IMG/VR virus record: IMGVR_UViG_3300013286_000013
Coordinates: 1-64,000 of that record
Direction: 5' to 3' (one strand)
Source: a virus
Length of the DNA: 64,000 nt
The notes beneath the pieces are model-generated. The model saw only the letters and a program-made list of their open reading frames with translations, was not told the DNA's origin and did not search any database. The position numbers were made by a program, and so were the translations under genes. Of the stretch, positions 26,858 through 57,800 are shown one piece after another. Position 1 is the first letter of the stretch. Each line of letters starts with the position of its first letter.

Positions 26858-27406
26858 ATGCGATTCAATTATTTTTTTGTTAAAGGATTTTACTCTCCGG
26901 ATGAGGTCACTAGACTAAAAAATATCTTAATTAAGAATCAAGATAAAACCCAACCAGACGTGCCTGCTAAGAATGTTGTAAAAACAGCCGAAGTAGGTAT
27001 TGTTCCGATCCTTGCCTTGCAGGAACACATTGGTGGCATTTTGAATCTAATTAAAAAAATCAATAAAGAAAACTTTGGTTTTGATCTCTATGATTTCACT
27101 GAGTATGATACTGTAAATTATAATCAGTACAATTCAGATACCAACGGTGAGTACGGGTGGCATACAGATTTTCCTTTGAGTTTCTTTCATCAGATCAAAC
27201 TTACTGTGTTGGTTAACCTAAGTACAGAAAGTTATGAGGGCGGAGACTTTGAGATTTTTTTAAACGGTCCTATTCCTATTCCTGATTTTAAGGAACCAGG
27301 CGGAGTGTTAATTTTTCCATCGTACATATCGCACAGAGTTACACCAGTAACAAAAGGATCTAGATCATCTATGAGCTTGTTTGTTACAGGTCCACGTCTA
27401 AGGTAA
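26858..27406 (+). CDS. 2-oxoglutarate/Fe(II)-dependent oxygenase
   Basis: 182 aa. The iron triad is visible as H102-x-D104 (in GWHTDF) and H159 (in SHRVTP), with R169 placed to bind the 2-oxoglutarate carboxylate. Flanking strands (KLTVLVNLS, GGDFEIFL, GGVLIFPSY) are those of the prolyl-4-hydroxylase/PKHD-type jelly roll. Such enzymes are frequent in T4-like aquatic phages; the substrate (protein, nucleobase or small molecule) cannot be read from sequence. It starts directly after the stop of the histone-like gene, so it is part of the early operon. Confidence 0.88.
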   Translation: MRFNYFFVKGFYSPDEVTRLKNILIKNQDKTQPDVPAKNVVKTAEVGIVPILALQEHIGGILNLIKKINKENFGFDLYDFTEYDTVNYNQYNSDTNGEYGWHTDFPLSFFHQIKLTVLVNLSTESYEGGDFEIFLNGPIPIPDFKEPGGVLIFPSYISHRVTPVTKGSRSSMSLFVTGPRLR

Positions 27407-28298: not shown

Positions 28299-28319
28299 TT
28301 CTTGCTGGAGAATGCAAAA

Positions 28320-29012
28320 ATGAAAATAAGTGAATTAGTAATGGAAAGCCATAAACTTGATGAAGCTCCTATGGGCATGCTCAGTAAGTTTGGCAATAAA
28401 GTGATGAGTAAATTTGGTAGCGATACTTCTACTGGAAAGCTAAAGTCAGGTGATGTAGCTAATAAGTTATATTCAGCGTTCAATCAATATCTAGGTCAAT
28501 CAGGACAACAGCCAACATGGCCTGTTGTTTCAAAATGGTTACAGTCAAACAAGTATCCTATCAAGATGGCACAGAAAGTAGTTCAAGGTGCCAAAGCAGA
28601 TGCCGCCATTCCACAAGGGCCTAGCATGTTGGACAGAGCTAAATCTGGTGCTCGACAAGTTGGTAATAAGATTAAACAGGGTGCAGAGAAAGTAGCTAAC
28701 TATGCTATGGACAAAGCTGGTGCTCCTGGAGAGTTTGCTGAAGGTAAAATTAGTGAAGCTACTGGTGCTCCACTAGATAAGAAAACACTAGAGAAAGTGT
28801 TCATGGCGGCCGCTCAAGAAGCCGCAGTAGTTGTTCAACAACGTAAGCAAGGTGGTGGACAGCCTAATCAAAAAAATAACGGACAGCAACAGCTATCTGT
28901 TCAACAAGGTGGTAAGAGTCAAGGTGGAGATGCTAAGTTGGCGCAACGTGTTAGCAACCTTGAAGCTGAAGTTGCCGCACTAAAAGGATCTGGGGAACAA
29001 AACGCCGCTTAA
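28320..29012 (+). CDS. Putative internal virion protein with capsid-targeting N-terminus
   Basis: 230 aa. The start is set at ATG 28320, which has GGAG 9 nt upstream; a TTG 18 nt earlier would place the start before that site. The first residues, MKISELVMESHKLDEA, resemble the T4 capsid-targeting sequence of internal proteins (MKTYQEFIAEA in IPI-III) and include a gp21-type cleavage site L-x-E (L13-D-E15, then A16). The rest is basic and helical (residues 20-150), followed by a Gln/Asn/Gly-rich linker (about 180-210) and a C-terminal heptad-like helix (VSNLEAEVAALK). I infer packaging into the prohead core and processing by gp21. Function after injection is unknown. Its stop overlaps the stop of the convergent minus-strand frame. 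Confidence 0.6.
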   Translation: MKISELVMESHKLDEAPMGMLSKFGNKVMSKFGSDTSTGKLKSGDVANKLYSAFNQYLGQSGQQPTWPVVSKWLQSNKYPIKMAQKVVQGAKADAAIPQGPSMLDRAKSGARQVGNKIKQGAEKVANYAMDKAGAPGEFAEGKISEATGAPLDKKTLEKVFMAAAQEAAVVVQQRKQGGGQPNQKNNGQQQLSVQQGGKSQGGDAKLAQRVSNLEAEVAALKGSGEQNAA

Positions 29013-30108
29013 AAGAACGGCAAGCCGCTTTCTTTTGTAGTTTCTAGATTGCTTCTGATTATCTTAGACACTATCTCTCGATCTCCGCTATCCATCATAT
29101 AGAGCTGGTCTATTGTTATCCCTCCTCGCATGTACCAACACATTTGATATAGATTATGTTTAATGGCTTCTATCTCTCGATCCATCTCTTGCACTAGGGC
29201 TAAGATCTTATCGTAGGGTAGAGCTAGAAGCCTTATACGAAAAAATTTGCTTCGTTAAACGTGAAAGGAACTTCGATAGTAGGCGGAGCGCCTTTTTCTA
29301 ACATTTCCGGAGTACTTTGTATGGTCATTGGCTTTAATTGATTGTTTAAATTAAGAACTCCCAGTCTGTCCTTAATCTTTTCAAATACTGCGCTGTCACA
29401 TTTTTCAATAAACTCTGTAATAAATTCGGGATCTTCTACTACTCCTGCTATACTTTCTATCCTGTAAATAGCCTGACCAATTATGGTAATTGTCTTGCTT
29501 GTGAGTTTTTGAAAGGCCGCTTGAAATGCCTTGATCTTGTCTTGTTCGGAAGTGTTGTCATCTTTGATAATACTGATTAATCTCTGCGTGTCAAATTCTC
29601 CTATCTGCGCATCAGTCTGACTACGATAGGTTAAAGGTTTAAGATAGACTACTAATTCTGGAGATATTTCAAATCTATCATCCCAATCAACTTGAGACTG
29701 CAGATTTTCTAAAACTTCGCGCACGTTAATTTCATAATCGGTATCGCCGTCAATAGTAGGATGTGTTATTTTCATAGTGAGCATTTCGCCATATGTAGCT
29801 AACCGCACGGCTACTAGAATAGTATCAAGATCAACCTGTGGGCAGTCCCAGGCATCAAGCACGTTGGGCATGCAACTGTGAATAATTTCTACCATAGCTT
29901 GACCGTTCATCAATGCATCTGGAGTTTTTAACAGGAGTTCATCGCGGGCTGTCATTGAAAACACAGGATATTCTCCGTTGACACTTACATTGAGACTGCC
30001 TTCTTTCCAATATTTGCCGTTGCTGGGTAACCTAATATAGATCTTGGGCTGTCTTAAAACGCTTAATAACGGATTAATTCTTACTGCTGGTTGGGTAATT
30101 TCTGTCAT
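29009..30108 (-). CDS. Predicted -1 frameshift fusion of the gp26-like protein (366 aa)
   Basis: If ribosomes slip back one base on the heptamer at 29248-29242, translation leaves the gp26 frame two codons before its stop and continues for 77 codons to the TAA at 29011-29009. The extension begins FRIRLLALPYDK and contains the conserved-looking segment YQMCWYMRGG...DREIVSKII...ETTKESGLPFF. That tail has no good own start: the first candidates, GTG 29194 and ATG 29185, lack a Shine-Dalgarno, while the -1 frame is open right back to the slippery site. This is the layout of tail assembly chaperones (lambda gpG/gpGT), in which the rarer long product links tape measure and tube protein. The tape measure gene is adjacent. 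Confidence 0.6.
29233..30108 (-). CDS. gp26: Baseplate hub / tail assembly chaperone, gp26-like
   Basis: 291 aa. Signature segments of the T4-like gp26 family (T4 baseplate hub protein): KIYIRLPSNGKYWKEG near residues 22-37, VFSMTARDELLLKTPDALMN near 49-68, then EIIHSCMPNVLDAWDCP and DLDTILVAVRLATYG. These proteins act in hub and tail-tube assembly; in many aquatic T4-like phages the gene is next to the tape measure gene, as here. ATG 30108 follows GGAGTGCAGAA. The gene ends AAT TTT TTC GTA TAA, which includes a slippery heptamer. Confidence 0.8.
   Translation of the reverse strand: MTEITQPAVRINPLLSVLRQPKIYIRLPSNGKYWKEGSLNVSVNGEYPVFSMTARDELLLKTPDALMNGQAMVEIIHSCMPNVLDAWDCPQVDLDTILVAVRLATYGEMLTMKITHPTIDGDTDYEINVREVLENLQSQVDWDDRFEISPELVVYLKPLTYRSQTDAQIGEFDTQRLISIIKDDNTSEQDKIKAFQAAFQKLTSKTITIIGQAIYRIESIAGVVEDPEFITEFIEKCDSAVFEKIKDRLGVLNLNNQLKPMTIQSTPEMLEKGAPPTIEVPFTFNEANFFV
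29242..29248 (-). promoter_or_regulatory. -1 ribosomal slippery heptamer A-AAT-TTT
   Basis: Read on the minus strand in the gp26 frame, the bases are A AAT TTT, a perfect X-XXY-YYZ pattern, followed by TTC GTA TAA. Slippage into the -1 frame gives AAA TTT and then an open frame of 77 codons. No downstream pseudoknot has been modelled. Confidence 0.6.
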
Positions 30109-30182: not shown

Positions 30183-32609
30183 ATGGCAGGAAAAGAAACA
30201 GTCAAAGGTACGTTTGGCAATGAGCCAATAGAGCTTAATAATGCCGCGAGCGAAGCTACGCTTTATGCCATGTTAAAAATAGCACAGAAAGATAGTGCTG
30301 TACTTGCAGAAATGGCCAAGAAGGCAGGTATTGATAGTAAAAAAATTCAAGAGTCTTTAGACAAACAATCAGACGGTGGCGGCGGTAGCAAAGGTGGTGG
30401 ATTAGGATTGTTAGGTGGCGCCGCAAATTTAGCAGGTGGCTTCTTAATGGACATGGTAGGAAGCATAGGAAAGACTATTGGTAACCTGGCTAACTTTAGT
30501 CAGAGCTTGATGGACGGCACTGCAAGAGCCAGTGATTTTTTCAAAGCCTTTAGCGGTCTGCCATTAGGGCTAGGACTGCTCGCAGATGCATTGGCATTTT
30601 CTCAAAAGTTTTTTGAAAAACAAATAGACACCTATAGGATAATAAGTCAGACAGGTGCAGGTCTATCTAGCAGTCTAGGAGGACTACGCATACAGGCGCT
30701 TAATCTTGGGCTGAGTATGGACGAGTTTGGAGCCATGTTTGCAAAAAATCAACGTGCATTAGGACAGCTTGGCGGCAAGTCAATGGAAACTGCAAAAAAT
30801 TTAGTAGCAATTAATAATGCATTAGTTAATAGTCAAATGGGAAGAAATTTAGCAGGACTTGGGTATACCTTTAGTGAGCTCAATGGTCTCATAGGAGATT
30901 ATCTAGCTGTTACAGCAGACGGTGTAAGAATCAATCATGATTCGGGCAGTGAGCAGAGAAGATTGGCCAAGGCCGCTGGGGAGTATGGCAAGGAACTTGA
31001 TTTCCTTGCCAGACTAACAGGTGAAAGTAGAGAAGCTATTCAAAAGAAAATGGAAGCAGATAATCAAGAAGCCAGCTGGCAATTATACCTTACAAGTCTA
31101 GGACCTGAAATGCAAAAACAAGCTACGGAAGCTATTGCTCGTGCCAGACTGATGGGAGGTAAAGGCGGTGTTGATGCTATTAAATCTATGTTTATGGGAT
31201 TTGCGGGACCGTTCAGCCAAGAAGGTCAGTTTTATGTTTCTACCATGCACGGAGGAACACAAGCACTGAAAGGAATGGTTGCCGCAATTAAAAGCGGGCA
31301 ATCAAGTGAAATAGTTAGCACTCAAATTAATAAACTTTTTGCGCAAGGCATGGCAAGCAATATCAAAGACGTAGATAGATTCAGACATACTATATATGCG
31401 GCTGGCCAAGGCGGCGCAGAAAGCGCCAAGGCTTTCTTAGAATTAGTCGAAGCGCAGAAAAATTTTAGGAATCAAGGAAAATTTGCGGAAGCAGATATTT
31501 TGAAGTCTATTATTGCTACTCAAAAAAAAGCCGCAGCCGATGCAGATGCGGCTAAAGGACAAGCCGAAACAGACAAGCAGATGAAGGCTTTAGGAGCAAC
31601 ATTAACAACTGCATTACTACCTGCTTTATCTAGACTTAGTACAGTTGGCCTGAGTTTAATAAGCAGATTTACTGAGTTTATTAAATCGGAAGGTGTTATG
31701 GACAAGATTAAGAAAGCCGCTAACATATTAGCTGAATTTATAGAAAATTTATTCAATGACGCTGGAAGAGAAAAAATATTAAATGATTTCAAGTACATGA
31801 TGAAATTGATGTTGATAGAGATCAAGTATGCATTGAACTTGTTTTATACAAAAGGTGATGCGGCGGCCGAAAGAGCAGAATTAGATAGACAAAAAAAGAT
31901 TATAGATCTAACTGCTCAAAAAGAAAGATTAGCAAACGAAGCAAAGATCCTACAAGAAAAAATGCTTATTGTGCAGAAAAATGATGCTAAAAAGTTTGAC
32001 GAACAAATCAAACTAAGAGAGAAACATATCTCAAGTATCGAAAACGACGGAAAATTAGAGGAAGCAGTTAAACAAGAAAGAATTCAAAAAATTCGTGACG
32101 AGATACGTGAATTAGAAGATAAAAAAGAAGCCGCTGGAAAACTCAAAGCACCAGAACTGGCCGCCCAAATAGAACAAAATAGTAAAGATTTATCTAAAAC
32201 TACAGAAGAACTTGACAAGCTATTAGCAGAAAAAAATAAAGTGGAGAAGGCAAAAGCTGATAGAGCTAGAGATGCTAAGGAATCTGAAAACAATATGCCT
32301 GGCCCTATCCGTCCAACATTTGCTTCGGGTACATTAGGATCAGGAAAATTGATACAGAATTTTGGTAGAGAAACTATAGCATCCCTGCACGGAAAAGAAG
32401 CCGTATTAAATGAAGAGCAACTAACAAATCTAGCTAAAGGTGTCCAGCAATCTTCTCCACAGATAAATTTAGACGGCCTAGATGTGCTGGCAGAAGGCAT
32501 AATTACATTAAATAGAACTACAGCAATGCAGAATAAGATACTCGGTACTATTGCCGACAATCAGCGTACAATGATCAACCGGGCAACCGGAAATAGACTA
32601 ATGGCATAA
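30183..32609 (+). CDS. Tail length tape measure protein, gp29-like
   Basis: 808 aa (T4 gp29 590 aa). It has a Gly-rich segment at about 65-85, a hydrophobic helix near 75-110, a central helical body, a hydrophobic helix near 470-500 (ALLPALSRLSTVGLSLISRF), a long charged coiled coil near 560-690, and a C-terminal motif FGRETIASLHGKEAVLNEEQ that is typical of tape measure ends. It is expected to extend through the tail tube from the hub and set tube length. It lies beside the chaperone gene on the opposite strand and directly before the portal gene. AGGAAA 8 nt before ATG is the ribosome-binding site. Confidence 0.78.
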   Translation: MAGKETVKGTFGNEPIELNNAASEATLYAMLKIAQKDSAVLAEMAKKAGIDSKKIQESLDKQSDGGGGSKGGGLGLLGGAANLAGGFLMDMVGSIGKTIGNLANFSQSLMDGTARASDFFKAFSGLPLGLGLLADALAFSQKFFEKQIDTYRIISQTGAGLSSSLGGLRIQALNLGLSMDEFGAMFAKNQRALGQLGGKSMETAKNLVAINNALVNSQMGRNLAGLGYTFSELNGLIGDYLAVTADGVRINHDSGSEQRRLAKAAGEYGKELDFLARLTGESREAIQKKMEADNQEASWQLYLTSLGPEMQKQATEAIARARLMGGKGGVDAIKSMFMGFAGPFSQEGQFYVSTMHGGTQALKGMVAAIKSGQSSEIVSTQINKLFAQGMASNIKDVDRFRHTIYAAGQGGAESAKAFLELVEAQKNFRNQGKFAEADILKSIIATQKKAAADADAAKGQAETDKQMKALGATLTTALLPALSRLSTVGLSLISRFTEFIKSEGVMDKIKKAANILAEFIENLFNDAGREKILNDFKYMMKLMLIEIKYALNLFYTKGDAAAERAELDRQKKIIDLTAQKERLANEAKILQEKMLIVQKNDAKKFDEQIKLREKHISSIENDGKLEEAVKQERIQKIRDEIRELEDKKEAAGKLKAPELAAQIEQNSKDLSKTTEELDKLLAEKNKVEKAKADRARDAKESENNMPGPIRPTFASGTLGSGKLIQNFGRETIASLHGKEAVLNEEQLTNLAKGVQQSSPQINLDGLDVLAEGIITLNRTTAMQNKILGTIADNQRTMINRATGNRLMA

Positions 32610-42594: not shown

Positions 42595-45500
42595 ATGGCC
42601 GTAGGTCGAATTACAGGCCCGTTACTTGCAAGTAATTTGCTACGTGACGGTATAAACTTAGCAGTTGAAACCAACTTGCTCTATCTTGATGTGACAACAG
42701 GTCGCATCGGCATTAAGACGAACTCTCCGCAATACGATCTAGATGTAAATGGAACGGCCAATGTTGGCAGTATAATTGTTTTAAACACATCTACACTCGG
42801 TCTACTAACAGTCACAAAAACCGCAAGTAGCGGTACTATTGGATCTACACTAGGTCCCATTCACATAAAGCCTGCCCCTGGTAACGAAATTAAATTAGAT
42901 GCTGATACTCTAGTAAGTGGAAATCTACATGCTACGGGCGATATCACAGCAGATGGCAACATTGTTCTAGGCAATCAACTAGGTGTTGATACTCTAACAG
43001 TTGGCGCAGAATTCCTTTCAAGCCTAATTCCAAAAACTCCAGGGACATATAATGTTGGCTCTCCCACTAACAATTGGAAAGATGGTTACTATCAACAGAT
43101 ACAAGCCGGTAACCTAAGAGCCTACGGTAGTACGATTACCAATCTATTAGCCAGTCAAGGCATTAGTATAGAACCCAAAGGCGGTCCGCTAAATGTCTAC
43201 GGTGAAATTCGCGTATGGGGACAAAATCCTTTAGGCACATCACCAGTAACAAAAAATCTACTGTATGTAACTGAAGATGGTAGTGATACCAACGACGGCG
43301 GAGCCATGGATCCAAGTCGTGCTTGCCGTACAGTAAGTGGTGCAACTAAGAGTCCTTTATACAAAGAAGGTACAAGCATTAAAGTTTCGCCAGGTCTGTA
43401 TAGAGAAAATAATCCCATCCTGATGAAACAATACACATCAGTAATTGGTTCAGATCTACGTACAACACTTATTGAACCAATGAACAAGACTCAAGATCTA
43501 TTCCACGTTCAATCAGGTTGTTACGTTGCACAGCTGATGATGTACAACGGCCGATCAGGAAGATTTCCTGGTGGTCCTGGTTATGCCCCCGGCACCAATA
43601 GAGGTGCCTATGCCACAGCATTTCCACCACAGGTTAACGGAACAAAGATTGACCTGTTCCACTCGCCATACATTCAAAACTGTACCAACCAATCAGGTCC
43701 TTGGTTATATGACGGCACAATGTTTGTGCCTAACCAAACAATCCAAATTCCAGAAGCTGTCGGAACAGCTACATATCCTTCAAACACAACAACATTTACT
43801 GTTACTTTAAGTACAGGATCTATCTATGTTGGCCAGTCGATCAACGGAGGGCCACCTGATCCTGGATTTCAAAATGCTCGAACACTGTTGTTGGCCAACA
43901 AGGCATTTATTCAAGAACAAACAGTTGCCTATGTTGATCAAACATACGGCGGCCCATTCCAATATAATGCAGTTAAGTGCGCCCGTGATACAGGATTGAT
44001 TGTTGACGGCCTAGGACTGGACTTGATCTATCAAGGTACAAGTCAATCAGTGTTCTCTGGTTTGCAATACTGGAATCAAACTGCTACTCCGACTCAGATT
44101 CCTGGAGAAGCAACAACAACCACAAACGCATTTAACTATATCAGCGGTCTTGCACAGCAGATTGTTAGAAATATTGTAATTGCGGCACCTTATCAAAATA
44201 CTCTAACACAGGTGACAAATCTTCCAGCCGGAGCAGTTGGTGATTCTACTCGAGTAGGATCGTTGTTTACAACTGTGACCAATATCATTACCTACGGTAC
44301 GGCTGGAATCACAGATAAGATTATCCCTAACGGTACTACTATTACTTCTAACACCAGTACCGTTGCCGCATATAATTTGTTACAGGCAAATAAGAATTTC
44401 TTAAAGTCAGAAGTAATTGCATGGATTACTGTTTTTAGTCCCGGCAGTTTTATCTACGATAAAAACAAGTGTAAAAGAGATCTTGGATATATCATAGACA
44501 GCATATCTTTTGATTTGCTACGTGGCGGAAATAGACAAGCTATTCAGGCTGGTACTCTATACTACGGGTACAGTAGCACCACTGCTATTCCTAATGAAAT
44601 TGCACAGACAACCATGGCTTATCAGTACATGAAGTCTGTGATTAGCTCAGTTGTTCAAAGCCAAAAGTTGGTGTCATTTTATCAGAGCGAAATTCCACAA
44701 GTATTAGATAATGTTAATCCTGGGTCAGCCGCCGCCGCAACAACTATCAGTTCTAATATTGATCTTATTACTCGATTAATTACAGTAGGACCAGCGGCTG
44801 CTCCTAGTCTAGTTCCTATCAGCTTAACTCAAACTTCAACAGCTGGACTATTAAATGCCTATGCATTGCTAAATGCAAATAAGAATTTTATCAAGGCAGA
44901 GGTTGTTGCCTATACAAATAGTCTACCTAACTTTGTTTACAATCAAGAAAAATGTAAAAGAGATATTGGTATTATTTTGGAAAACGTCAGCTTTGATGCA
45001 CTGTTTGGAGGCAATGCCAAGGCTATCGAATCTGGGCTTGCTTATTTTGACGGAGTAAATTCTGTAATTGCTGGACAAGAAACACAGAGTGTTGGTGCGA
45101 TCAATTATGTTAAATCATTGACCAACACAATTATTAATAACATGCGGGCTCCTAATTTAATAGGAACTACAGCAACGCATGCACAAGTTATTAATTATGC
45201 ATTTCCTGGCGGAAGTGTAGCACAAGACTCTTTAGACAATGCCTACGACACTATTACAAATATAATCAATAATGGTCCAAGCGTTGCCCCAGAAAGTTTC
45301 TTAGGTTGCGCACCTGATCCTCATTATATGAGTGCAGAAATTCTGCTACAGACCAACAGAGCATTTATACAAGAAGAAGTAGTTACATATTTAAATAATC
45401 AATTCTTACCGTTCTCATTCAACTCAGCTAAGTGCTATCGCGATAGTGGACTAATTGTTGATTCAATCGCATTGGATTTATTATTCCCAACTGCAACAGA

Positions 45501-48500
45501 CAGTCAAAGCAATTTTGCTGGACTACAATATTGGTCACAAAGCAGTTATACAGGATTGATTGCATCTCAAATAACTACCACTACCAACTCTATCAGCTAT
45601 CTAAGTAGCCTAGCACAGAAGATTATTTTAAATGACACGTCCGGTCCGCGTTACCAGTCAACGTCGGCACAAAATACATCAGTGGCTTCTAGCACTGCTG
45701 AAGTTGCCACTAAAATTGGTACAAACTTTAATTTAATTTTAGACATTTTAAACAATGGCACTGTTGGAATAACTGACAAGATAGTTCCTAGCGGATTAGC
45801 AACGAATGATCCTAGAATAGTCCATGCCTACACTCAGTTGCAAAATAACAAAGGTTATCTGCAAGACGAAGTCATTGCGTTTATAACATCAACAACTTCA
45901 GGATTTACCTACGATCAGACCAAGTGCCGACGCGATGTTGGTTACATGATTGATAGTATCAGCTTTGATTGTCTATATGGCGGGAATCGTCAGAGCATTA
46001 CATCAGGCATCAACTACTATAGTCACAATGCCCTGTCTTCCGTGCAGACTCCTGCAGAAACTACAGCAACTATAGCCGCATATACTCGTCTAAGTGACAT
46101 TGTTTCGGGGATTATTACAGCAACTCCCATAGCTCGAAGCGATAATAACATCATTGATCAAGTTATAGATCTTCCGCCTGCGACCAGTGCAGAAGTCACT
46201 CTAGCAAGAGCCAAGATTGCTAAGATATCTAGTATTATTACCACTGGCCCGTCAGCGGCATCGGCAACAGCTTCTATAAGCCTAACGCCAAGCGCAGATG
46301 AAAATGTTAAACGTGCCTATGCATTGTTAGAAGCCAACAGAAATTTTATTGCAAATGAGTTGGTACAGTTTGCACAAAATACCTACAATGGTGGTGGTTT
46401 CCAATATAATCAAGCCAAGTGCTCGCGTGATACAGGTTTAATAGTTGACGGATTTATAACTGACCTAGGATGGTCTACCAATGGCTACACCAATACCATA
46501 TTTTCAGGATTGCAATATTGGAACCAGTCAGGGTTCACAGGTCAAATAGTTGGCCAATTAACCACAACTACCAATGCAATTAACTATGTAAAAACAATGG
46601 CTAAAGAAGCTGTTGTTAACACAGTAGGAACACGTTATCAAAGCACAGTTACTCAACAGATTAATTTGCCTTCAGCAACACTATCTGAAGCCAGCACACT
46701 AGACATTGAGTTTAAAATAATAACCGATATTTTAAGTACAGGTACTGTTGGTATATCAGACAAGGTTGTTGCTAACGGCTTAGCTATTGTTTCGTCTAAT
46801 GCTCAAAATGCCTATAATATATTGCAGGTCAACAAGACATATTTCCAAGCTGAAGCAATAGCATATATTGATTCAACTAAGACAGCTGGCTTTATCTACG
46901 ATAAAGTTAAATGTTCTCGAGATGTAGGCTACATGATCGACTCTGTCTGTTTTGATCTGCTATGGGGCGGCAACAGACAGGCAATTACCAGTGGTGTCTA
47001 CTACTATTCATTCAATGGCTCGTCTAGTATTCCCGGAGAAAGTCAACAGACTATTTCGGCATATCAGCGGCTAGGGGAAATACTTGGAGACATTATTACC
47101 AATTCTCCAATACAGAACAGTCCGGGAAATATAACTGCCCAGCAATTTAACAGTTCTCCGTCAATCATTGAAACAGCCTCAGCATTGAATGCCATGGTTG
47201 CCTTGTTATTAGATATCATAAACAACGGTCCTTCAGCAGTCAGCAGACAAATACCAGTGGGCTTGACTCGCAATACAGATCAGAACATTCTCAACGCTCA
47301 GACACTGTTGTTGTTGAATAGACAATTTATTAGAGATGAGATAATTGCCTACGTCAACAGTACATTCCCTAACTACCAAGGCAATAAAGGTTTTAATTAC
47401 GATCAGGCAAAGTGTTATCGTGACACAGGTTTGATCATTGATGCAATTAGTCAAGATTTATTAGTGGGCGGAAATAGAAAAATCATTGAAGCCGGTGTGA
47501 GTTATTGGACCGGTGGTCGAAATGTTGTTTACGATCAGCTTCCACAATTTAATGCCGCACTGACCTACATCAAAGATTTATCAAGACAGATTGTACAAAA
47601 TATAACAGTTACATCGTTAAGTGCCGCACCGCAAAAACTCAATACATATTTTGGCGGCGGTATATATGCAATTGATAGTATTAACAGATTGGTAGAAACA
47701 TTTAGAACTATCGTTACTAAAGGTCCTGCCTACTCTCCAATCGGCTACGAAGGATCAGGTGCGTTTTCTGCACTGAGCCCAACCAGTGCTGACTTTACTC
47801 AAGTGGCATCTACAATATTACAAGCAGACCTAGTCGGAGCTAATCAATATAAAATCATATTGAATGTTCCTACACAAGGTCCTGGCATTAACCAAACTAT
47901 ATACTTTGGTCAAACATCTGTTTATCCGTTGCAAGATAAGGATGTTCCGGATATCTACGAACAACGAAAAGTTGATCCGTGGGGTTCTATCGGCGGAAGC
48001 CTGGTAGACGGTGGTGTAATTAGTGATCGATCACCGATTCAGTCTTTTGTTTATGATGCGTTTACGCAGGTTAACCAAGGCGGCATCGGTATTCACATTA
48101 CAAACAATGGATATGCACAGTTGGTATCTGTGTTTACAATTTTCTGCGGTACTTCAGTATTGGTCGAAAACGGCGGTATCTGTTCGATTACCAACTCAAA
48201 CGCCAACTTTGGTGACTACTGTCTAGTATCAAAGGGCTATGGTAAGCGTAGCTTCTTTGGCGAAGTTACTAATCCGGCGGTACTGCCATACTATCCAAAC
48301 GGCTTCTTTCCGCAGGCTCAACAGGTTGAAGTATACTGTCCTGACCCTGCTAATCGTCCGCACATTGGACAAGTTATGGAAGTTGAAGTTCCGGAAACCT
48401 ATCGAAATGCACAGGGACTACCTGGATACCTTTCTGCTATTGTCAATACATCTACGCTGACTACTGGTAGTATTGTGATAAATGGCATCGACACTACCGG

Positions 48501-51450
48501 AATTGTTATTGGCCAGAGCCTCTACGCACGTGATCAATTTGGTAGTTATAATGATTTATTTGGCAATCCATACATTACTACAGGTACTCAGGTTACAGAT
48601 GTTAACTTCCAATCAATCTCTCTAAGCAATCCTGTAAATGCTGGCGGCGGTGATACTGCCAATCTTAATTTCTTTACTATGTATATCACAGGCAATGCCT
48701 ATTATACTATCAGAGGTAGTACATTGGCACCTGATCCAATCGCTCCAGGTACTAAACTCATTGGTGCAGGTGCTACTGAACAAGGCAACGATCAAACAAT
48801 TGAAGAAATTCAAGCCATTACTTATCTAAGTTCCTTGACAAACAAAATTGTATCCAACACTTTAGTCAACGCATTTCAATCAACGATAACACAATTTACA
48901 AATATTGCGCTGGCAACAGGCGGACAGTCAACTGTGAGAATGGGGCAACTGTTTGCAACCTTGACAAATATAATTAACAACGGACCAAGTGTAGCTCCTA
49001 CTGTTGCCTACGCAGGCATTGTTGCACCCGGAGCGAACGATTCGTCTTCGTTATTAAGATCAAATAGATTATTCCTACAAACAGAAATAGTAAATTATGT
49101 TAATAGTCTATACTTTGTCTACGACCATGCGTCGTGGAAACGCGATTTGGCATCTATTATAGATGGTTTTGCCTATGATGTAGCCTTTCAATCCAACTAT
49201 CAATCTATCAAATCCGGAAATTTATACAATAGAAATATTGAAAGTGCCAAGTATATTTTAGAAAATGAAAAGACTCAGATAACGGATGCTATAGGCAAAC
49301 TCGGTGCTATCACTAACCAGTTGGCTGGTATTAGTACAGTCACATCTGCCATTAGTGTAATTAACTTAGACTCTATCTATATACAAAATATTATCAACAA
49401 CGGCGACGCCGGTGGTCCTGCGTACTCAATGCCTGCACCTGCAGGACTAGATTCGGGCATCGTTGGTGCCATTAGCTTAATTAACAACAACATATCCTTT
49501 ATTAAAGAAGAGTTGATAGGATGGATCAACTATACATATCCAGTTTTTACTTATGACACAGTTAAGTGCAAGAGAGACATGGGACTCATCTTAGATGCTG
49601 TTCATTGGGACGTGTTATTAGGCACCAATTATCGTGCAGTAAAAGCCGGTCAATCGTATTATCGTGGTAATTCATATGCTGTACTAACCTACGAAAAGAC
49701 AGCAACTATTGCGGCATTTAATTTTATCAAGACCGATGCATTGTTGATTCCAGCAGTAGCAACAAGCACAACCGCTACAACTACAGTAACTACTGACTTT
49801 ACAACAATTAATAACATATTGCAAAGTGGTGTAAGTGTAGCTCCTGCGATAACCTATACCCTACCTACAAATATTGCAGTTGGATTTGATAGTGCAAGTT
49901 TACTACTGCAAAATAATGTGTCATTTATCAGTGCAGAAGTAGAAGCATTTATATATACCAACTACAATGCTGGCGGCTTTGTCTATGATCGTGTAAAATG
50001 CAAACGTGATATTAGTTATCTCGTACAGGCAATTATATACGATATCACATATGGTGGAAATTCCATGAGTATTGATAGTGCGTTGCAGTATTTTGATAGT
50101 GCCAATAATAATGTAAGCACTATTCCAAATCAGCAAACACAAACCATTGCAGGTATCAACTATATTAATACCATATGCCAACGCATCATAACTAATTTGT
50201 CTCCATTAGTGGCATATCAAACAGTTAACATTGTTGCTCAATATAAAAATAATGCATATATAAACGGTTCAGCCGCAGGTTCTAAAGTTGCACTGTTGGT
50301 AACAGTGATGAGCAATATTGTCAGTAGCGGTCCTAGAGTGACCCCGGTTATTACAACTCCTGATATCAGTTGGGTCAACGACAAGACTCTTGCAGCCGGA
50401 ACAGCTATCAATGCCAGTGCGAATTCAATCTCTACACAGGCGATTACATTTATCGGGCAAAATTTTGATGTATTCACTTATGATCAAAATAAATGTCGCA
50501 GAGACATAGGCTACATATTACAGGCTCTAATATATGATTTGACCTACGGTGGCACCTGGCAGACTGTTGACTCCGGAAAATTGTATTGGAGCGGGACCAA
50601 ATCTTTAGTGCCAAATGAACAAGCACAGACTGTGGGTGCCTGGAATCGCATGTTATATCTGGTTGGTCAGATAGTACAAAATCAAAATCCTGCAAATAGT
50701 TATCAAGCTACGTACAGTCAATTCACCAACGGATCGATCACCAACGGAGCAAATGCTATACCAACATTGACTAATTTGACTGGTATATTAACTTCAATAA
50801 TTCAAAACGGATTATCTTATGCTCCTGATATTGTATATCCAAGCATATCACAGGCTACTCCTGTACTGCAGGGAATATACAACATAATCGAATCGCAAAA
50901 GACCAATCTAGTGAATCAGGTAATTACATACATTGATGGAAAGTATAATGGATTTGAATATAATCAAGCTCTGTGTAAGCGAGATGTTGGATATATTATA
51001 GATGCCATAGCGTCCGATTTGGTAACAGGCGGTAATTACAACACAGTGTTGGCAGGTCAAAGTTATTACGCCAGGGCAGGAACACATCATTACGTGCAGT
51101 TAGAAGACAACATCACGGATGCCGCTCTGTTTTCAGACAAGGCACTGGTGAATTTCTATCAGCGTTCATACATGTCGGCTTCTGGCTACTTGTTTGAGTA
51201 TGTAGGCGCAGGTTCTAACTACGGCGCTCTACCGCAGATAGGACGAGCAGATCCAATACAAGAAAGAGAAACCATACAGTTGAATAACGGTAAGGTCTTC
51301 TTTACATCAACAGACCAAAACGGTGACTTCCGAATTGGCCCGGGATTGGTAATTAGTCAGGCAACTGGCGTGTTATCAGGTCGTACATTTACCAAGTCAT
51401 TGTTTGCTAACTTGACACCGTTCATCTTGGCGATTGAAGGAAAAGGATAA
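42595..51450 (+). CDS. Giant tail fibre/adsorption protein with beta-helix and 13 KCxRD repeats
   Basis: 2951 aa. Residues 1-60 (MAVGRITGPLLASNLLRDG) form a fibre adaptor; about 225-400 is a right-handed beta-helix of pectin-lyase type (LLYVTEDGSDTNDGG, IKVSPGLYRE, SVIGSDLRTTLIEP). Thirteen helical repeats of about 142-167 residues follow, each with an F-x-Y-(N/D)-x-x-K-C-x-R-D-x-G motif; motif positions are near 461, 625, 786, 946, 1110, 1275, 1439, 1606, 2182, 2324, 2468, 2633 and 2793. Copies 9 (SWKRD) and 13 (LCKRD) are degenerate at the Lys/Cys. Between copies 8 and 9 a second beta-helix segment (about 1740-1900) and a strand domain interrupt the series. The C-terminus (KVFFTSTDQNGDFRIGPGL) is a conserved ending in this kind of phage protein. 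It is inferred to be a virion surface protein for host contact. Confidence 0.85.
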   Translation: MAVGRITGPLLASNLLRDGINLAVETNLLYLDVTTGRIGIKTNSPQYDLDVNGTANVGSIIVLNTSTLGLLTVTKTASSGTIGSTLGPIHIKPAPGNEIKLDADTLVSGNLHATGDITADGNIVLGNQLGVDTLTVGAEFLSSLIPKTPGTYNVGSPTNNWKDGYYQQIQAGNLRAYGSTITNLLASQGISIEPKGGPLNVYGEIRVWGQNPLGTSPVTKNLLYVTEDGSDTNDGGAMDPSRACRTVSGATKSPLYKEGTSIKVSPGLYRENNPILMKQYTSVIGSDLRTTLIEPMNKTQDLFHVQSGCYVAQLMMYNGRSGRFPGGPGYAPGTNRGAYATAFPPQVNGTKIDLFHSPYIQNCTNQSGPWLYDGTMFVPNQTIQIPEAVGTATYPSNTTTFTVTLSTGSIYVGQSINGGPPDPGFQNARTLLLANKAFIQEQTVAYVDQTYGGPFQYNAVKCARDTGLIVDGLGLDLIYQGTSQSVFSGLQYWNQTATPTQIPGEATTTTNAFNYISGLAQQIVRNIVIAAPYQNTLTQVTNLPAGAVGDSTRVGSLFTTVTNIITYGTAGITDKIIPNGTTITSNTSTVAAYNLLQANKNFLKSEVIAWITVFSPGSFIYDKNKCKRDLGYIIDSISFDLLRGGNRQAIQAGTLYYGYSSTTAIPNEIAQTTMAYQYMKSVISSVVQSQKLVSFYQSEIPQVLDNVNPGSAAAATTISSNIDLITRLITVGPAAAPSLVPISLTQTSTAGLLNAYALLNANKNFIKAEVVAYTNSLPNFVYNQEKCKRDIGIILENVSFDALFGGNAKAIESGLAYFDGVNSVIAGQETQSVGAINYVKSLTNTIINNMRAPNLIGTTATHAQVINYAFPGGSVAQDSLDNAYDTITNIINNGPSVAPESFLGCAPDPHYMSAEILLQTNRAFIQEEVVTYLNNQFLPFSFNSAKCYRDSGLIVDSIALDLLFPTATDSQSNFAGLQYWSQSSYTGLIASQITTTTNSISYLSSLAQKIILNDTSGPRYQSTSAQNTSVASSTAEVATKIGTNFNLILDILNNGTVGITDKIVPSGLATNDPRIVHAYTQLQNNKGYLQDEVIAFITSTTSGFTYDQTKCRRDVGYMIDSISFDCLYGGNRQSITSGINYYSHNALSSVQTPAETTATIAAYTRLSDIVSGIITATPIARSDNNIIDQVIDLPPATSAEVTLARAKIAKISSIITTGPSAASATASISLTPSADENVKRAYALLEANRNFIANELVQFAQNTYNGGGFQYNQAKCSRDTGLIVDGFITDLGWSTNGYTNTIFSGLQYWNQSGFTGQIVGQLTTTTNAINYVKTMAKEAVVNTVGTRYQSTVTQQINLPSATLSEASTLDIEFKIITDILSTGTVGISDKVVANGLAIVSSNAQNAYNILQVNKTYFQAEAIAYIDSTKTAGFIYDKVKCSRDVGYMIDSVCFDLLWGGNRQAITSGVYYYSFNGSSSIPGESQQTISAYQRLGEILGDIITNSPIQNSPGNITAQQFNSSPSIIETASALNAMVALLLDIINNGPSAVSRQIPVGLTRNTDQNILNAQTLLLLNRQFIRDEIIAYVNSTFPNYQGNKGFNYDQAKCYRDTGLIIDAISQDLLVGGNRKIIEAGVSYWTGGRNVVYDQLPQFNAALTYIKDLSRQIVQNITVTSLSAAPQKLNTYFGGGIYAIDSINRLVETFRTIVTKGPAYSPIGYEGSGAFSALSPTSADFTQVASTILQADLVGANQYKIILNVPTQGPGINQTIYFGQTSVYPLQDKDVPDIYEQRKVDPWGSIGGSLVDGGVISDRSPIQSFVYDAFTQVNQGGIGIHITNNGYAQLVSVFTIFCGTSVLVENGGICSITNSNANFGDYCLVSKGYGKRSFFGEVTNPAVLPYYPNGFFPQAQQVEVYCPDPANRPHIGQVMEVEVPETYRNAQGLPGYLSAIVNTSTLTTGSIVINGIDTTGIVIGQSLYARDQFGSYNDLFGNPYITTGTQVTDVNFQSISLSNPVNAGGGDTANLNFFTMYITGNAYYTIRGSTLAPDPIAPGTKLIGAGATEQGNDQTIEEIQAITYLSSLTNKIVSNTLVNAFQSTITQFTNIALATGGQSTVRMGQLFATLTNIINNGPSVAPTVAYAGIVAPGANDSSSLLRSNRLFLQTEIVNYVNSLYFVYDHASWKRDLASIIDGFAYDVAFQSNYQSIKSGNLYNRNIESAKYILENEKTQITDAIGKLGAITNQLAGISTVTSAISVINLDSIYIQNIINNGDAGGPAYSMPAPAGLDSGIVGAISLINNNISFIKEELIGWINYTYPVFTYDTVKCKRDMGLILDAVHWDVLLGTNYRAVKAGQSYYRGNSYAVLTYEKTATIAAFNFIKTDALLIPAVATSTTATTTVTTDFTTINNILQSGVSVAPAITYTLPTNIAVGFDSASLLLQNNVSFISAEVEAFIYTNYNAGGFVYDRVKCKRDISYLVQAIIYDITYGGNSMSIDSALQYFDSANNNVSTIPNQQTQTIAGINYINTICQRIITNLSPLVAYQTVNIVAQYKNNAYINGSAAGSKVALLVTVMSNIVSSGPRVTPVITTPDISWVNDKTLAAGTAINASANSISTQAITFIGQNFDVFTYDQNKCRRDIGYILQALIYDLTYGGTWQTVDSGKLYWSGTKSLVPNEQAQTVGAWNRMLYLVGQIVQNQNPANSYQATYSQFTNGSITNGANAIPTLTNLTGILTSIIQNGLSYAPDIVYPSISQATPVLQGIYNIIESQKTNLVNQVITYIDGKYNGFEYNQALCKRDVGYIIDAIASDLVTGGNYNTVLAGQSYYARAGTHHYVQLEDNITDAALFSDKALVNFYQRSYMSASGYLFEYVGAGSNYGALPQIGRADPIQERETIQLNNGKVFFTSTDQNGDFRIGPGLVISQATGVLSGRTFTKSLFANLTPFILAIEGKG
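43963..51000 (+). repeat. Thirteen diverged coding repeats (about 430-500 bp) with KCxRD core
   Basis: The Lys-Cys pairs of the motif lie at about nt 43975, 44467, 44950, 45430, 45922, 46417, 46909, 47410, 49138 (degenerate), 49564, 49996, 50491 and 50971. Each copy also has G-(L/Y)-I-(V/I)-D before and D-L-x-x-G-G-N-x-x-x-I after the core. Copies with even spacing suggest growth by tandem duplication followed by drift. Confidence 0.85.
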
Positions 51451-51862: not shown

Positions 51863-54800
51863 ATGCCATCATTACTAAGCGGTAAGGTAAAATTAGTTAG
51901 TCCAGGAACTAATTACACCGTAGTTAACAATTATATCAGTCTGAGCCAAGCACAGGCTGGTTTAGGTGCCTCACCTACAACAAACACTGGTTACACCTTA
52001 GTAATTGGCCCAAATGGTCAGGCAACATATACAAACACACTTGGTCAAATTGCGTTTAGTACTGGTACTATTACATCGCAAGCACCGACTGGTGACTTAA
52101 CTCTTAATCCAAGCGGCACAGGTACGATTACACTTAATGGTCCTGTTAATATTCCCCAAGGTATTCAAGGTAGTGGATTTAAGACAGAAGCAAAACGTGC
52201 AACAACTGGAAACGTTTTAGTCAATCAATCCACATCAACAGTGGTCTATGACGGTTATCATGTAGATTATCTAGACCGTCTCTTAGTTAGAGCACAAGAT
52301 GATGCTAGAAGCAATGGTATCTATTATGTTTACACAGCAACGTTTGCCACTAATGTAGTTACAACGCAGATAAACTATACGCAAAATAGCTATACTGCCA
52401 CAACATACAACGTCGGTGATGCAAATAGTCTAGTTGCGGGTAGTACACTTACCAGTTTGTTTGTCGGCTTTAACACAACTATTGTTCAAATACTAGACAG
52501 CTCAACATTCTTAATGAGCAATCCTGCATTGGGAAATATTACTGGTGCAGTTTCTACAGCATCAAGTAAAGGTCTAACAAACTTTGTAACACTTTCAAGA
52601 TCAACAGATGCATACACGACTGGTGGATTGAAACACGTTGTTGTTCCAATTGTTGGAGGCACCTATGAGGGTAGATTATTTTATACATCATTCCTGGCTA
52701 CCCAGGTAGTCGGAGTTGATCCAATCAATTGGTATGAGATAGTTGATAGTACTTCTTATCAAACTGTCTACAACAAATATTTAGAAAATTCATCGATTGG
52801 CTCGTATCTTCCAAACACTGGTAGATTTACAAATTTAACTGCAATAAACACAGCTACCTTTACTAACGCAACTGATTCTACAGCAACTAACAATGGTGCT
52901 GTGATAGTAACTGGTGGGGTTGGTATTCAAAAGAGTCTGTTTGTTGGAGGAGCTACAAACATTCAAGGCAGTTTAAATGTAAACAGCCAAGCAAATATCA
53001 ATCCAGCTGATGCAACAGTATCAATTCAACCAACTGGAATTGGCACAGTTACGATCAATCCATCTACTAAAGGCACCATTAACAACATAGACATTGGTAA
53101 CACTATTCCCAAGAATGGTACCTTTGTAAATCTAACAGCTAATAATCAATTATTAGTAACATCAACATCACAGTCTACCAGTACAACTACAGGTGCTGTA
53201 CAAATTGCAGGCGGTGTTGGCATTGGTGGCAACCTAGTCCTAGGAGGTCAGTTAATATTCAGCGGACTTGCAGACGAGTTTGTTGTTAATAATTTCCGTG
53301 CAAAAGGACAGGTACTGTTTACTACGAGTACAAATTCAACATCAACTACGACAGGCGGACTTATTGTAAGTGGCGGTGTTGGTATTGCACAAGATCTAGT
53401 ATTAGGTGGTAAACTAATATTTCAGGGCTCGGGCACAAACTTATCTTTGAGTACACTATCAGTTACGTCTAGTTCACAGTCAACCAGTACTACTACTGGT
53501 GCGTTAACTGTAGTCGGTGGGGTAGGTGTAGGTGGAAACTTAACCCTAGGCGGACAACTAATATTCAGCGGTGCTGCCGGTAATTTAAAGGTCAGTACCC
53601 TAGCAGTTACCAGTTCTACAAATTCAACCAGCACAACTACAGGAGCATTTACTGTTACTGGCGGTGTTGGTATTGGACGAGATTTAGTACTAGGCGGAAG
53701 TCTGGTATTCACAAACGCCAGCGGTACTATCAACGCGGCACAAGTTCACATCCTTGGAACAAACACTTCAGTAAGTACGCAAACAGGTGCTCTAGTTGTT
53801 GATGGCGGTGTGGGTGTTGCCAAGGACGTGGTAGTTGGCGGCAATTTGGACCTAGGCGGTCAGCTGACATTTAACAAATCATTTACTGCAACCTTCGTTG
53901 CACTACACATTACCAGCACAGCAAGTAACGTCGCCTCATTTGTTGATAATGCAATTTTTGTTGAAGGTGGCCAATCTGTTAAGAAAGACCTAAGTGTTTA
54001 TGGTAACACGGTGCTCTACGGTAATTTAACGGTAGCTGGAACACAGACAGTTGTTGATTCGCAAAACACCTATATCATTGATCCAGTAATTGACATAGGT
54101 ACTGGTGTGGATAACACTCCACTATTGGTCAATGACGGTTATGATCGCGGCATGCTATTGCACTATAGCACAGGAGTTGGCGCACAATTTGACAACCATG
54201 CATTTATCGGGCGCGATGCAACTACAGGTTTCTTAACCTATAAAGTTAACATCTACCCAGGTGGCTACGAATATTTTCCGCCAGCATTTGCAAATACAGG
54301 TAGCTTTGGTACAGCACAATTTGGCGGCCTACGACTAAGTGGCGGCGCAGTTGCACTGAGCACTAACACGGGAGATCTACAAGTACTGGGCGGTATTGGT
54401 GTTACAGGCGGAAGCTATTTTGGCGGAACGCTAACACTAGGTAGTGCATTAGCCAATACAACACAGACAATCAATCATGCATTGGTAGTATCTAGTGGCG
54501 GTATTGGAGTTGCAGGAGCCAGTTTCTTTGCAGGAACGGTTAAGTTTTCAAATGCCCAAGCATCAACAGATCCATCATCCGGAGCAGTCGTGCTTTCAGG
54601 AGGCCTTGGAGTAGGCGGATCGATCTTTACTGCCGGTCCAATGCGCATAAGAAACAGTACAGCGGCTGTAAGTACTGGAACAGGTGCCCTAGTTGTTTCA
54701 GGCGGGGCAGGATTTGATGGCGATATCTATGCACATAACATCTATACAGATGCAGGCCTAACACAGCTGGCAAATTTCAACGGTGGACGCATCAGCGATC

Positions 54801-57800
54801 CATTGTTTATCGACAATACTACAACTGCAATCAGCACTACAACAGGAGCATTGCGAGTTGGTGGTGGCGTAGGTATCGGCGGGGCATTATGGGTAGCTGG
54901 AACTGCAAACGTTAGCAACTTGTTTGTCAACGGTGCGGCAGTATTAACTACATCAAGTCCGACAGGATTCAACGGCGGCACGATCATCTATCCATTGCAA
55001 ATTGGATATAGTACTTCCACGTTAAACACAACTGGCCTAACAGTCAACTCAGGTGTTAACTCTGTATCAACAGACAGCGGCGCTATTGTAACTATTGGTG
55101 GCGTTGGCATTGGTCAAGATCTGCATATTGGCGGAACGATTTATCGCGAAGGCGATATAACAACGGCCAACTGGGGACAGACAGGTATTGCGGTTAACTT
55201 GGCAAGTGCTGTCTATACAGATAATCAAGCATCTGGGTCATTTACAAATACAAACAACGTCTATGTTGGCCAGCCAATCATCAATTCAAGATACGGCTCT
55301 GCATACGCACAGGCAAACACTGTCTTTATTGAAGATGCTCCTAAAGTTAAGACCACAGCTACTACCAGCATTGCGGATTCATACGCAGTATGGGTAAACA
55401 ACGGCAAAGTTCATATTGGTAGCACAGCGTCTAGTGCAACAAACTATCTCAACAACGCACTAAGCGTAGCAGGTGGTATTGGTATTGCTGGTGCTATACA
55501 GGCCAGTGGTCCATTAAGTGCTCCACAAATATTTGACAGCGGCAATCGTGTTGTTACATTTGTTGATATCATTGACGGTCCCGGTATATCATCAACTCCT
55601 GATAAATCAGGCGGCACTACTGCCACTATTACAATCAACAATACTGGTGTTCTAACAGCAAACGCTGGTACCGGTATCAACGTTGACAGATCTACCGGCG
55701 ATGTTATAATCAGCAACGTTGGTGTAACCAAGATTGAAACAGGTCCCGGAATTAGCGCATCAACCAGCACTGGTACCGTGTCACTGGTAAACACCGGTGT
55801 CCTAAGCCTAATAGCAGGAACTGACACAGCAGTATCATCTACTACTGGTAATATTACAGTTTATAGCACAGCTACTTTGGCTTCTGTAACCAGCAGAGGT
55901 GCAACGACAACCAGCACTATTCGTTTAACTAATACGCAGACTGGGTTGGTTGTCGGAGGCGATGCTGTGTTCTCTGGAACTGTTGCAGTTACCGGAACAT
56001 TGAACATCGGCGGTGCAAGTATCAGCGGTGGCAATGCTACATTTACATCATTACAAGCTGGCGATACCCTGATTACTGGACAGCTAACAGTATCAGGAAC
56101 ATCAACATTTATCAACAGTCAACAATTGACAGTTGTTGACCCTGTTATTGACGTAGGAACAAATATCAATAATGCACCGTTATTAGTTAATGACGGATTT
56201 GATAGAGGTGTGTTGATGCATTACAGCACCACTCTTTCAAATAACATTAAATATGATGCCCACGCATTCTTAGGACGTGATAACGCATCAGGTAAGTTAA
56301 CTTATAGAACCAACATTTGGCCAGGCGGTGTAACCGATGTTCCAAATCCTTTCAGCTCGACAGGCACACTGGGAACAGCAGTATTTGCCAGATTAGAACT
56401 ACAAGGCGGAATTGCTTCTACAAGCCCAACTACCGGCGATCTACAGGTAGTAGGCGGCATAGGTGTTGGAGGCGCAAGTTACATTGCCGGACAGGCAAGA
56501 TTTGGAAGTCAGCTAAATGCAAACGCCACAGCGACTGGCGCAGTCATAGTCGATGGCGGTCAATCTATTACTAAAGATCTGTACATTGGCGGCAACGTTA
56601 TTGTACGCGGATTTGTACTGACAACAGCCACAGCTTATAACGGCGGTGAAGTATTCAATCCTGTTATTATAACTAACGGTACAAGTGCTACGAATACCCT
56701 AACTGGTGCATTGATTGTACACGATGGCGGTGCTGGTATCGGCGGCGATGTTTGGGTCGGCGGAGCTCTTAATGCTAAATCAGTCCTGGTTGATGGAAAA
56801 GCAATCACAACTGACATTCACCTAGTAACTGGTCCCGGCCTAGTTGGTGCTGTTACAACATCTAGCGGTGGCGTAACTATCACAATGACCAATACAGGTA
56901 TCTTAAACTTAGATGCGGGCCCTGGTATTAGTCTTGCAAATACCGGCACAAGCGGTATAACAACAATTACCAACACTGGTGTATTGTCTGTATCAATCAA
57001 CGGACTAGGCCTAAAGGCCAGCACGTCAACTGGATCTGTGGTATTAACTAATATTGGTGTAACAGCCGCAACAGCTGGTGCAGGTATTAGTGTAAATCAA
57101 AATACAGGCTCGATCATTATCACCAACGTAGGTGTTCAAAGCATTGGTACTATTGGTGGTGGTATAACAGTAACTACCAGCACTGGATCTGTATTCTTAC
57201 TGAATTCCGGGGTGACAAGCCTAACAGCAGGTACAGATACCAACGTTACCGCGATATCAGGTGATATTACAATTTGGGATATCAGTACCCTACAATCAGT
57301 AACCGGTCGTGGAAATATTACAACTCACGACATAACTATCGATAGTACAACTCCAACTTCTAATACTGCCAGCGGAGCATTGGCAGTCACAGGTGGTGTT
57401 GCAGTCGGACAAAACTTGTACGCAGGTGGCCAGATTTATGCTCTGGGAGGCTATTTAGGATTAAATCCTCCTGCTATCTTTATCAACAACACAAACGTTA
57501 CTGTAACTGATAATACAACTGAGCACAAGGTTTCTGTTGCTATCAACGGTACTACTACAACTACATTTGATATTGTCGGTGAGCATATACTATCTACAAC
57601 AAATTCAACAAGCACCAATACGGGCGCATTGATAGTTGATGGTGGTATTGGCCTTGCCAAGAATATCTATGTTGGTGGCAGTGCCACAGTTGCAAATACT
57701 CTAACAGTACTAAGTACATCGACGATGGGTTCAATACTGCCTCTGCCAGGCGGTTATTACAACCTAGGAAGCCCAACACAGCGTTGGGGTACACTTTACA

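Follow-up and report, generated by a model that had tools for sequence, protein, structure and literature searches.

By -1 programmed frameshifting, a large T4-related phage very probably produces two forms of a tail assembly chaperone, of 291 and 366 amino acids, from one gene. The gene was analysed in a window of 64,000 nt (the whole stretch of DNA studied, positions 1 to 64,000 of IMG/VR record IMGVR_UViG_3300013286_000013). The conserved signal, the -1 coding frame, the RNA stem and the gene context were computed here, and from them we infer that slippage occurs, its rate and the role of the products as chaperones. The features, in positions of the window, are as follows.

29233..30108, minus strand: 0-frame ORF of 291 aa, predicted gp26-like short tail assembly chaperone (TAC-N), identified using PF12322, phrog_150, tblastn and Foldseek
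29242..29248, minus strand: overlapping heptamer A_AAT_TTT, shared by about half of the homologues and giving the same fusion peptide
29239..29245, minus strand: slippery heptamer T_TTT_TTC, in frame and invariant in 90/90 homologues, assessed by a synonymous-choice test
29233..29235, minus strand: 0-frame stop TAA, two codons 3' of the heptamer (TTC GTA TAA)
29225..29235, minus strand: 5' arm of the stem, UAAGGCUUCUA, beginning 3 nt past the heptamer (fold, covariation, positions)
29161..29172, minus strand: 3' arm of the stem, UAGAAGCC-AUUA (fold, covariation, helix-length test)
29009..29245, minus strand: predicted -1 extension (TAC-C), 76 codons past the common FF and a stop (open frame, pN/pS, homology in Atu_ph07 and Phosso)
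30183..32609, plus strand: divergent neighbour of 808 aa, probable tape measure protein (profile matches, conserved position)

The 0-frame ORF, read from 30108 to 29233 on the minus strand, ends with the codons GCA AAT TTT TTC GTA TAA. An open -1 frame runs from 29254 to the stop at 29011-29009, and the stop upstream of it lies just three codons before the heptamer, so that the shift would be confined to about 20 nt. The predicted fusion comprises 290 + 76 = 366 residues. The coordinates, the frame and the two product lengths given in a first-pass annotation of this DNA were correct when checked against the sequence.

In the proposed mechanism most ribosomes would end at the TAA at 29233 and release the 291-aa short form. 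A minority, positioned on U_UUU_UUC with tRNA-Phe in the P and A sites and delayed by the stem 3-6 nt downstream, would slip back by one base and continue translation as far as 29009, which would yield the 366-aa long form with an additional helical C-terminal domain. By analogy with the model of lambda gpG/gpGT (reviewed in PMC5009743), the short form may coat the tape measure protein and the added domain of the long form may recruit tail tube subunits.

Family of the probable chaperone and neighbouring genes

The 291-aa protein matched the PF12322 profile with an E value of 1.7e-9 (38.1 bits against a cut-off of 24.5) and the phrog_150 profile with an E value of 7e-13, and tblastn searches with it gave matches in 88 phage records, from jumbo phages. 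The short form and the extension were modelled as two separate parts rather than as the 366-aa fusion. The AlphaFold model of the 291-aa protein (pLDDT 88.7) matched T4-like hub assembly proteins in Foldseek (E 2.9e-21); the PDB, searched with both the TAC-N profile and the TAC-N model, gave no match. By its profile matches the protein is a member of the T4 gp26 family (PF12322). The family is named baseplate protein and the T4 products have historically been called 'hub' proteins, which was counted against the chaperone reading.

The 808-aa neighbour is separated from the chaperone gene by about 75 bp, and its homologue holds the divergent position in most loci. No matches to it were obtained by tblastn in the phage collection and profiles were therefore used. 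Its profile matched the CBB_251/121Q_597 family (hhalign E 3.8e-20), one of its homologues matched the phrog_4200 tape measure family (E 6e-7) and its best PDB match was a tape measure protein, this last match being weak owing to coiled coils. These results point to a probable tape measure protein. The chaperone gene, which the first-pass annotation placed beside the tape measure gene, adjoins this probable tape measure gene; the neighbour is divergently transcribed and so lies outside its operon. In the virions of phage CBB, CBB_251 was detected by mass spectrometry with 29 peptides, and CBB_250 (the short form) and CBB_249 (the extension) were not among the listed virion proteins (PMC5259590). 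Their being missing from that list is as expected for a chaperone and is weakly suggestive.

Other genes were noted in the window. A 236-aa ORF with a TTG start (28302-29012, plus strand), for which no convincing family was found, converges on the chaperone gene, with 4 nt at its 3' end shared with the end of the -1 frame. A 2OG-Fe(II) oxygenase (26858-27406, plus strand; PF13640, phrog_61) lies close to the structural genes. Two very large repetitive ORFs of 2951 and 2297 aa (42595-51450 and 51863-58756, plus strand) are perhaps tail-fibre or whisker-like proteins.

Slippery site and -1 reading frame

Homologues were gathered by tblastn of annotated phages and by two scans of IMG/VR, from which the best 80 of at least 595 relatives were kept. 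The 90 homologues with the 3' end of the gene on the contig, comprising IMG/VR contigs and jumbo phages of the Atu_ph07, 121Q, GAP32, CBB and PA5oct type, were compared. T_TTT_TTC was present within the 0 frame in 90/90, although protein identity among the homologues is low. The preceding codon was AAT in 50, GAT in 20, AGT in 12, CAT in three, ACT in two and TCT, GCT and TAT in one each; these are eight different codons, fourfold-box codons (ACT, TCT, GCT) included, and their third base is always T. The distance from the heptamer to the end of the 0-frame stop varied among homologues (6, 12, 15, 21 or 36 nt) with a constant frame offset.

In 66 divergent representatives the first Phe codon was always TTT and the second always TTC. 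TTC accounts for 154 of the 821 Phe codons (19%) in the representative genes, and only one other in-frame T_TTT_TTC occurred among their 18,899 codon positions. The synonymous-choice test gave a log10 P of about -76, which is overstated since the sequences were taken as independent. A conserved Arg in the -1 frame also requires the C of TTC, and this portion of the nucleotide constraint is therefore shared. By itself the heptamer TTTTTTC is no rarity in the window, with 14 occurrences versus 19 expected; the non-chance feature is its in-frame placement in 90/90 homologues and not its mere occurrence.

The first-pass annotation had named the overlapping A_AAT_TTT as the slip site. Slips at the two heptamers yield an identical peptide (...NFF-RIRLL...). 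A_AAT_TTT is present in the phage studied here, but among the homologues it recurs in only about half, and it was ruled out as the true slip site. The further expectation that the heptamer and the offset would be conserved while the spacing would not was borne out for T_TTT_TTC only. An SD-like stimulator upstream of the heptamer was sought and was absent in 65/66 representatives. Rhizobium phage RL38J1 carries the variant slip site T_TTT_TTG (locus L022, approximately 2142-2154), with no detectable stable stem 3' of it.

The two frames could also be joined by transcriptional realignment, through slippage of RNA polymerase on the homopolymeric run of six T that is present at the site. Six T is short for this process, however, which usually requires a run of at least about nine A or T. 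The run is six T followed by C in 90/90 homologues, and the constraint reaches this C, the X_XXY_YYZ phase and the downstream stem, which fits ribosomal slippage. Transcriptional slippage is considered to be extremely unlikely, and ribosomal frameshifting is the preferred reading of the slip site.

Reading from the heptamer, the -1 frame extended over 72-79 codons in the 90 homologues, mostly exactly 78 (one contig ends early). Among 81 homologues of equal length, stops were found in none in the -1 extension, versus 81/81 in each other frame. Substitutions at codon positions 1, 2 and 3 of the -1 frame numbered 233, 109 and 473 in 19 disjoint locus pairs, and pN/pS was 0.21 in the -1 frame versus 1.2-1.9 in the other frames. 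A conserved start codon was sought in the extensions of the 81 homologues and none was found, the first ATG ranging from codon 4 to codon 39 depending on the locus. These comparative measures identify the extension as genuinely coding and under purifying selection, without a conserved start, in agreement with the first-pass description of an open frame that has no convincing start of its own. Homologues of the extension are present in Atu_ph07 and Phosso. Its structure model is all-helical, and a structural search with this model gave no significant match.

These data also bear on the possibility that the break between the frames arose through a sequencing error or marks a decayed gene, as might be suspected of a contig from a metagenome-built virus collection. 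The same break recurs at the same place and in the same phase in 90 homologues, isolate genomes from many laboratories included, and purifying selection continues past it. This explanation is refuted by the comparative data and its probability is negligible.

The downstream frame might instead be an independent small gene that has a start of its own, or be translated by coupled re-initiation at the stop, the T run being incidental. GenBank does annotate it as a separate hypothetical protein in the records of 121Q, GAP32, CBB, BF, XbC2, Atu_ph07, Phosso and Vibrio 2.275.O (within L006-L014), and it is without any annotation in the record of Paride (L008). In some homologues, for example 121Q, NATGA or TAATG occurs at the 0-frame stop, and ATG is the fourth extension codon in 16/81. 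Against this, the start position is unconserved, the annotated starts differ from phage to phage, the conserved FFRxRLL block lies upstream of any start in most homologues, and the heptamer nucleotides are invariant while the preceding amino acid changes. None of the 90 homologues combined the lack of a heptamer with a separately started small gene, which the first-pass annotation had named as the contrary case. A separate or re-initiated gene is therefore judged very unlikely. With frameshifting as the preferred reading, the corrected annotation in records L006-L014 would merge both halves into one frameshifted CDS.

Downstream RNA stem

The region after the heptamer in the studied phage folds with an energy of -24.1 kcal/mol (z -2.9), the 11-bp arm at 29235-29225 pairing with 29172-29161. 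The invariantly paired core of the stem begins at 29232, 6 nt past the heptamer. The 60-nt segments directly after the heptamer gave a mean z of -1.65 (n = 66), versus -0.6 to +0.4 at other positions. When codons 3-30 were compared with shuffles preserving both protein and codon usage, the mean z was -2.74, with 98% of the values below zero; two controls in the same test, the later part of the extension and the upstream region, gave a mean z of -0.37.

The core consists of eight pairs (columns 14-21 with 74-81), and all of them were formed in 28/28 aligned relatives, a percentage biased toward the stem because it was derived from the same 28 sequences; the double changes are the stronger part of the evidence. 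Such changes occurred within the core (for example UA to CG and GC to AU), and the whole stem held 34 doubly changed cells versus 10.2 in the shuffled sets; slid controls gave 3-8. The longest helix formed with the 5' arm had a mean length of 9.7 bp, versus 5.1 bp in synonymous shuffles.

Helices of at least 7 bp fell into registers (i+j) of 95 (27 loci), 74-76 (17 loci) and 57 (three loci), the classes with a nearer 3' arm being based on minimum-energy folds and hence less certain. The register classes cluster on the tree, and the far arm is found in the clade of the studied phage and also in Atu_ph07 and Phosso. No such stem was detectable in most of the Rak2-like enterobacterial phages examined (L009, L010, L011 and L013, which are Xanthomonas XbC2, Serratia BF, GAP32 and CBB), and the stem is thus not universal. 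RNAalifold gave no single consensus stem over all 66 representatives because the location of the 3' arm differs by clade. A search of Rfam with the region returned nothing near the gathering score.

From these comparisons we infer that the stem stimulates slippage. There is about an even chance that this stem, apparently undescribed so far, has kept its 5' arm fixed after T_TTT_TTC while the partner moved among at least three sites in the coding region (paired-column sums of approximately 95, 75 and 57) during the evolution of the clade. Taken together, the slip site, the coding extension and the covarying stem give strong sequence-based support to the programmed -1 frameshift in a gp26-like tail chaperone that the first-pass annotation had put forward.

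Comparison with known systems

Whole-record searches of the annotated phages with TTTTTTC or TTTTTTG found exactly one PF12322 gene in 13/13. T4, Aeromonas phage 31 and Shigella phage vB_SdyM_006, which are without the signal, have two PF12322 genes each. T4 gp51 matched PF12322 over residues 1-201, while its C-terminal end matched phrog_634, a family to which the -1 extension found in a cyanophage also gave a match (E 4e-26); gp26 and gp51 therefore look like the short and long forms encoded as separate genes. The profile match between the extension and the C-termini of cyanophage proteins and T4 gp51 was weak (hhalign E 0.003, probability of about 10%). A three-sequence profile linking the studied TAC-N to T4 gp51 was not significant, though both proteins match PF12322. 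An exception to the pattern of one gene plus heptamer is the T4-like Pseudomonas phage Cygsa01 (L019, 1072-1982), which has a single PF12322 gene followed by a small ORF in the -1 frame, with AGC ATT TTC in place of T_TTT_TTC and TAATG at the stop.

Within the jumbo T4-related phages, a large and common group thus very probably forms its chaperone pair by frameshifting. T4 and the two relatives examined appear to divide the chaperone job between genes 26 and 51, and the exchange of one arrangement for the other can thereby be traced and tested by experiment. Public annotations that present the second half as a hypothetical gene unrelated to the first are corrected as well.

A 2016 review still made the reservation 'except T4' (PMC5009743). 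Tail chaperones of T4-like phages are reported to have been identified by Vladimirov, Gautam and Davidson (2022; Virology 566:9; PubMed 34826709). Papers citing that work state that some T4-likes use two chaperone genes (PMC10885494) and that the TAC-N genes in T4-like phages are known to carry poly-T -1 frameshift signals (PMC12846349). On these accounts the T4-like chaperones of 2022 share the gp26-type TAC-N and the poly-T -1 signals with the gene described here. Phages of the Vandenendeviridae and Andersonviridae (phage Adele; PMC12846349) likewise have a TAC-N that ends with a poly-T -1 site and a downstream frame annotated as a hypothetical gene; they belong to other families and their motif is GTTTTT rather than T_TTT_TTC. 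Within the literature library searched, no paper combined tail assembly chaperone, frameshift and jumbo. The present case is a well-supported new example of a phenomenon that is widespread in tailed phages and has been reported for some T4-likes; what may be new is the stem whose 3' arm relocates.

The lambda gpG/gpGT and P2 E/E+E' systems likewise combine a short chaperone with a long form extended by a -1 frameshift, from a gene that adjoins the (probable) tape measure gene and has its slippery site close to where the short frame ends. The slip site of lambda is G_GGA_AAG. The studied phage differs from both systems in T_TTT_TTC, in PF12322, in the divergent neighbour and in the conserved downstream stem. 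T4 is not known to frameshift, as the first-pass annotation stated, and employs genes 26 and 51 instead. In this comparison gp26 would correspond to the short form and gp51, with PF12322 and a C-terminal domain, to the long form; T4 has two genes and no slippery site, whereas the studied phage has one gene with a predicted frameshift.
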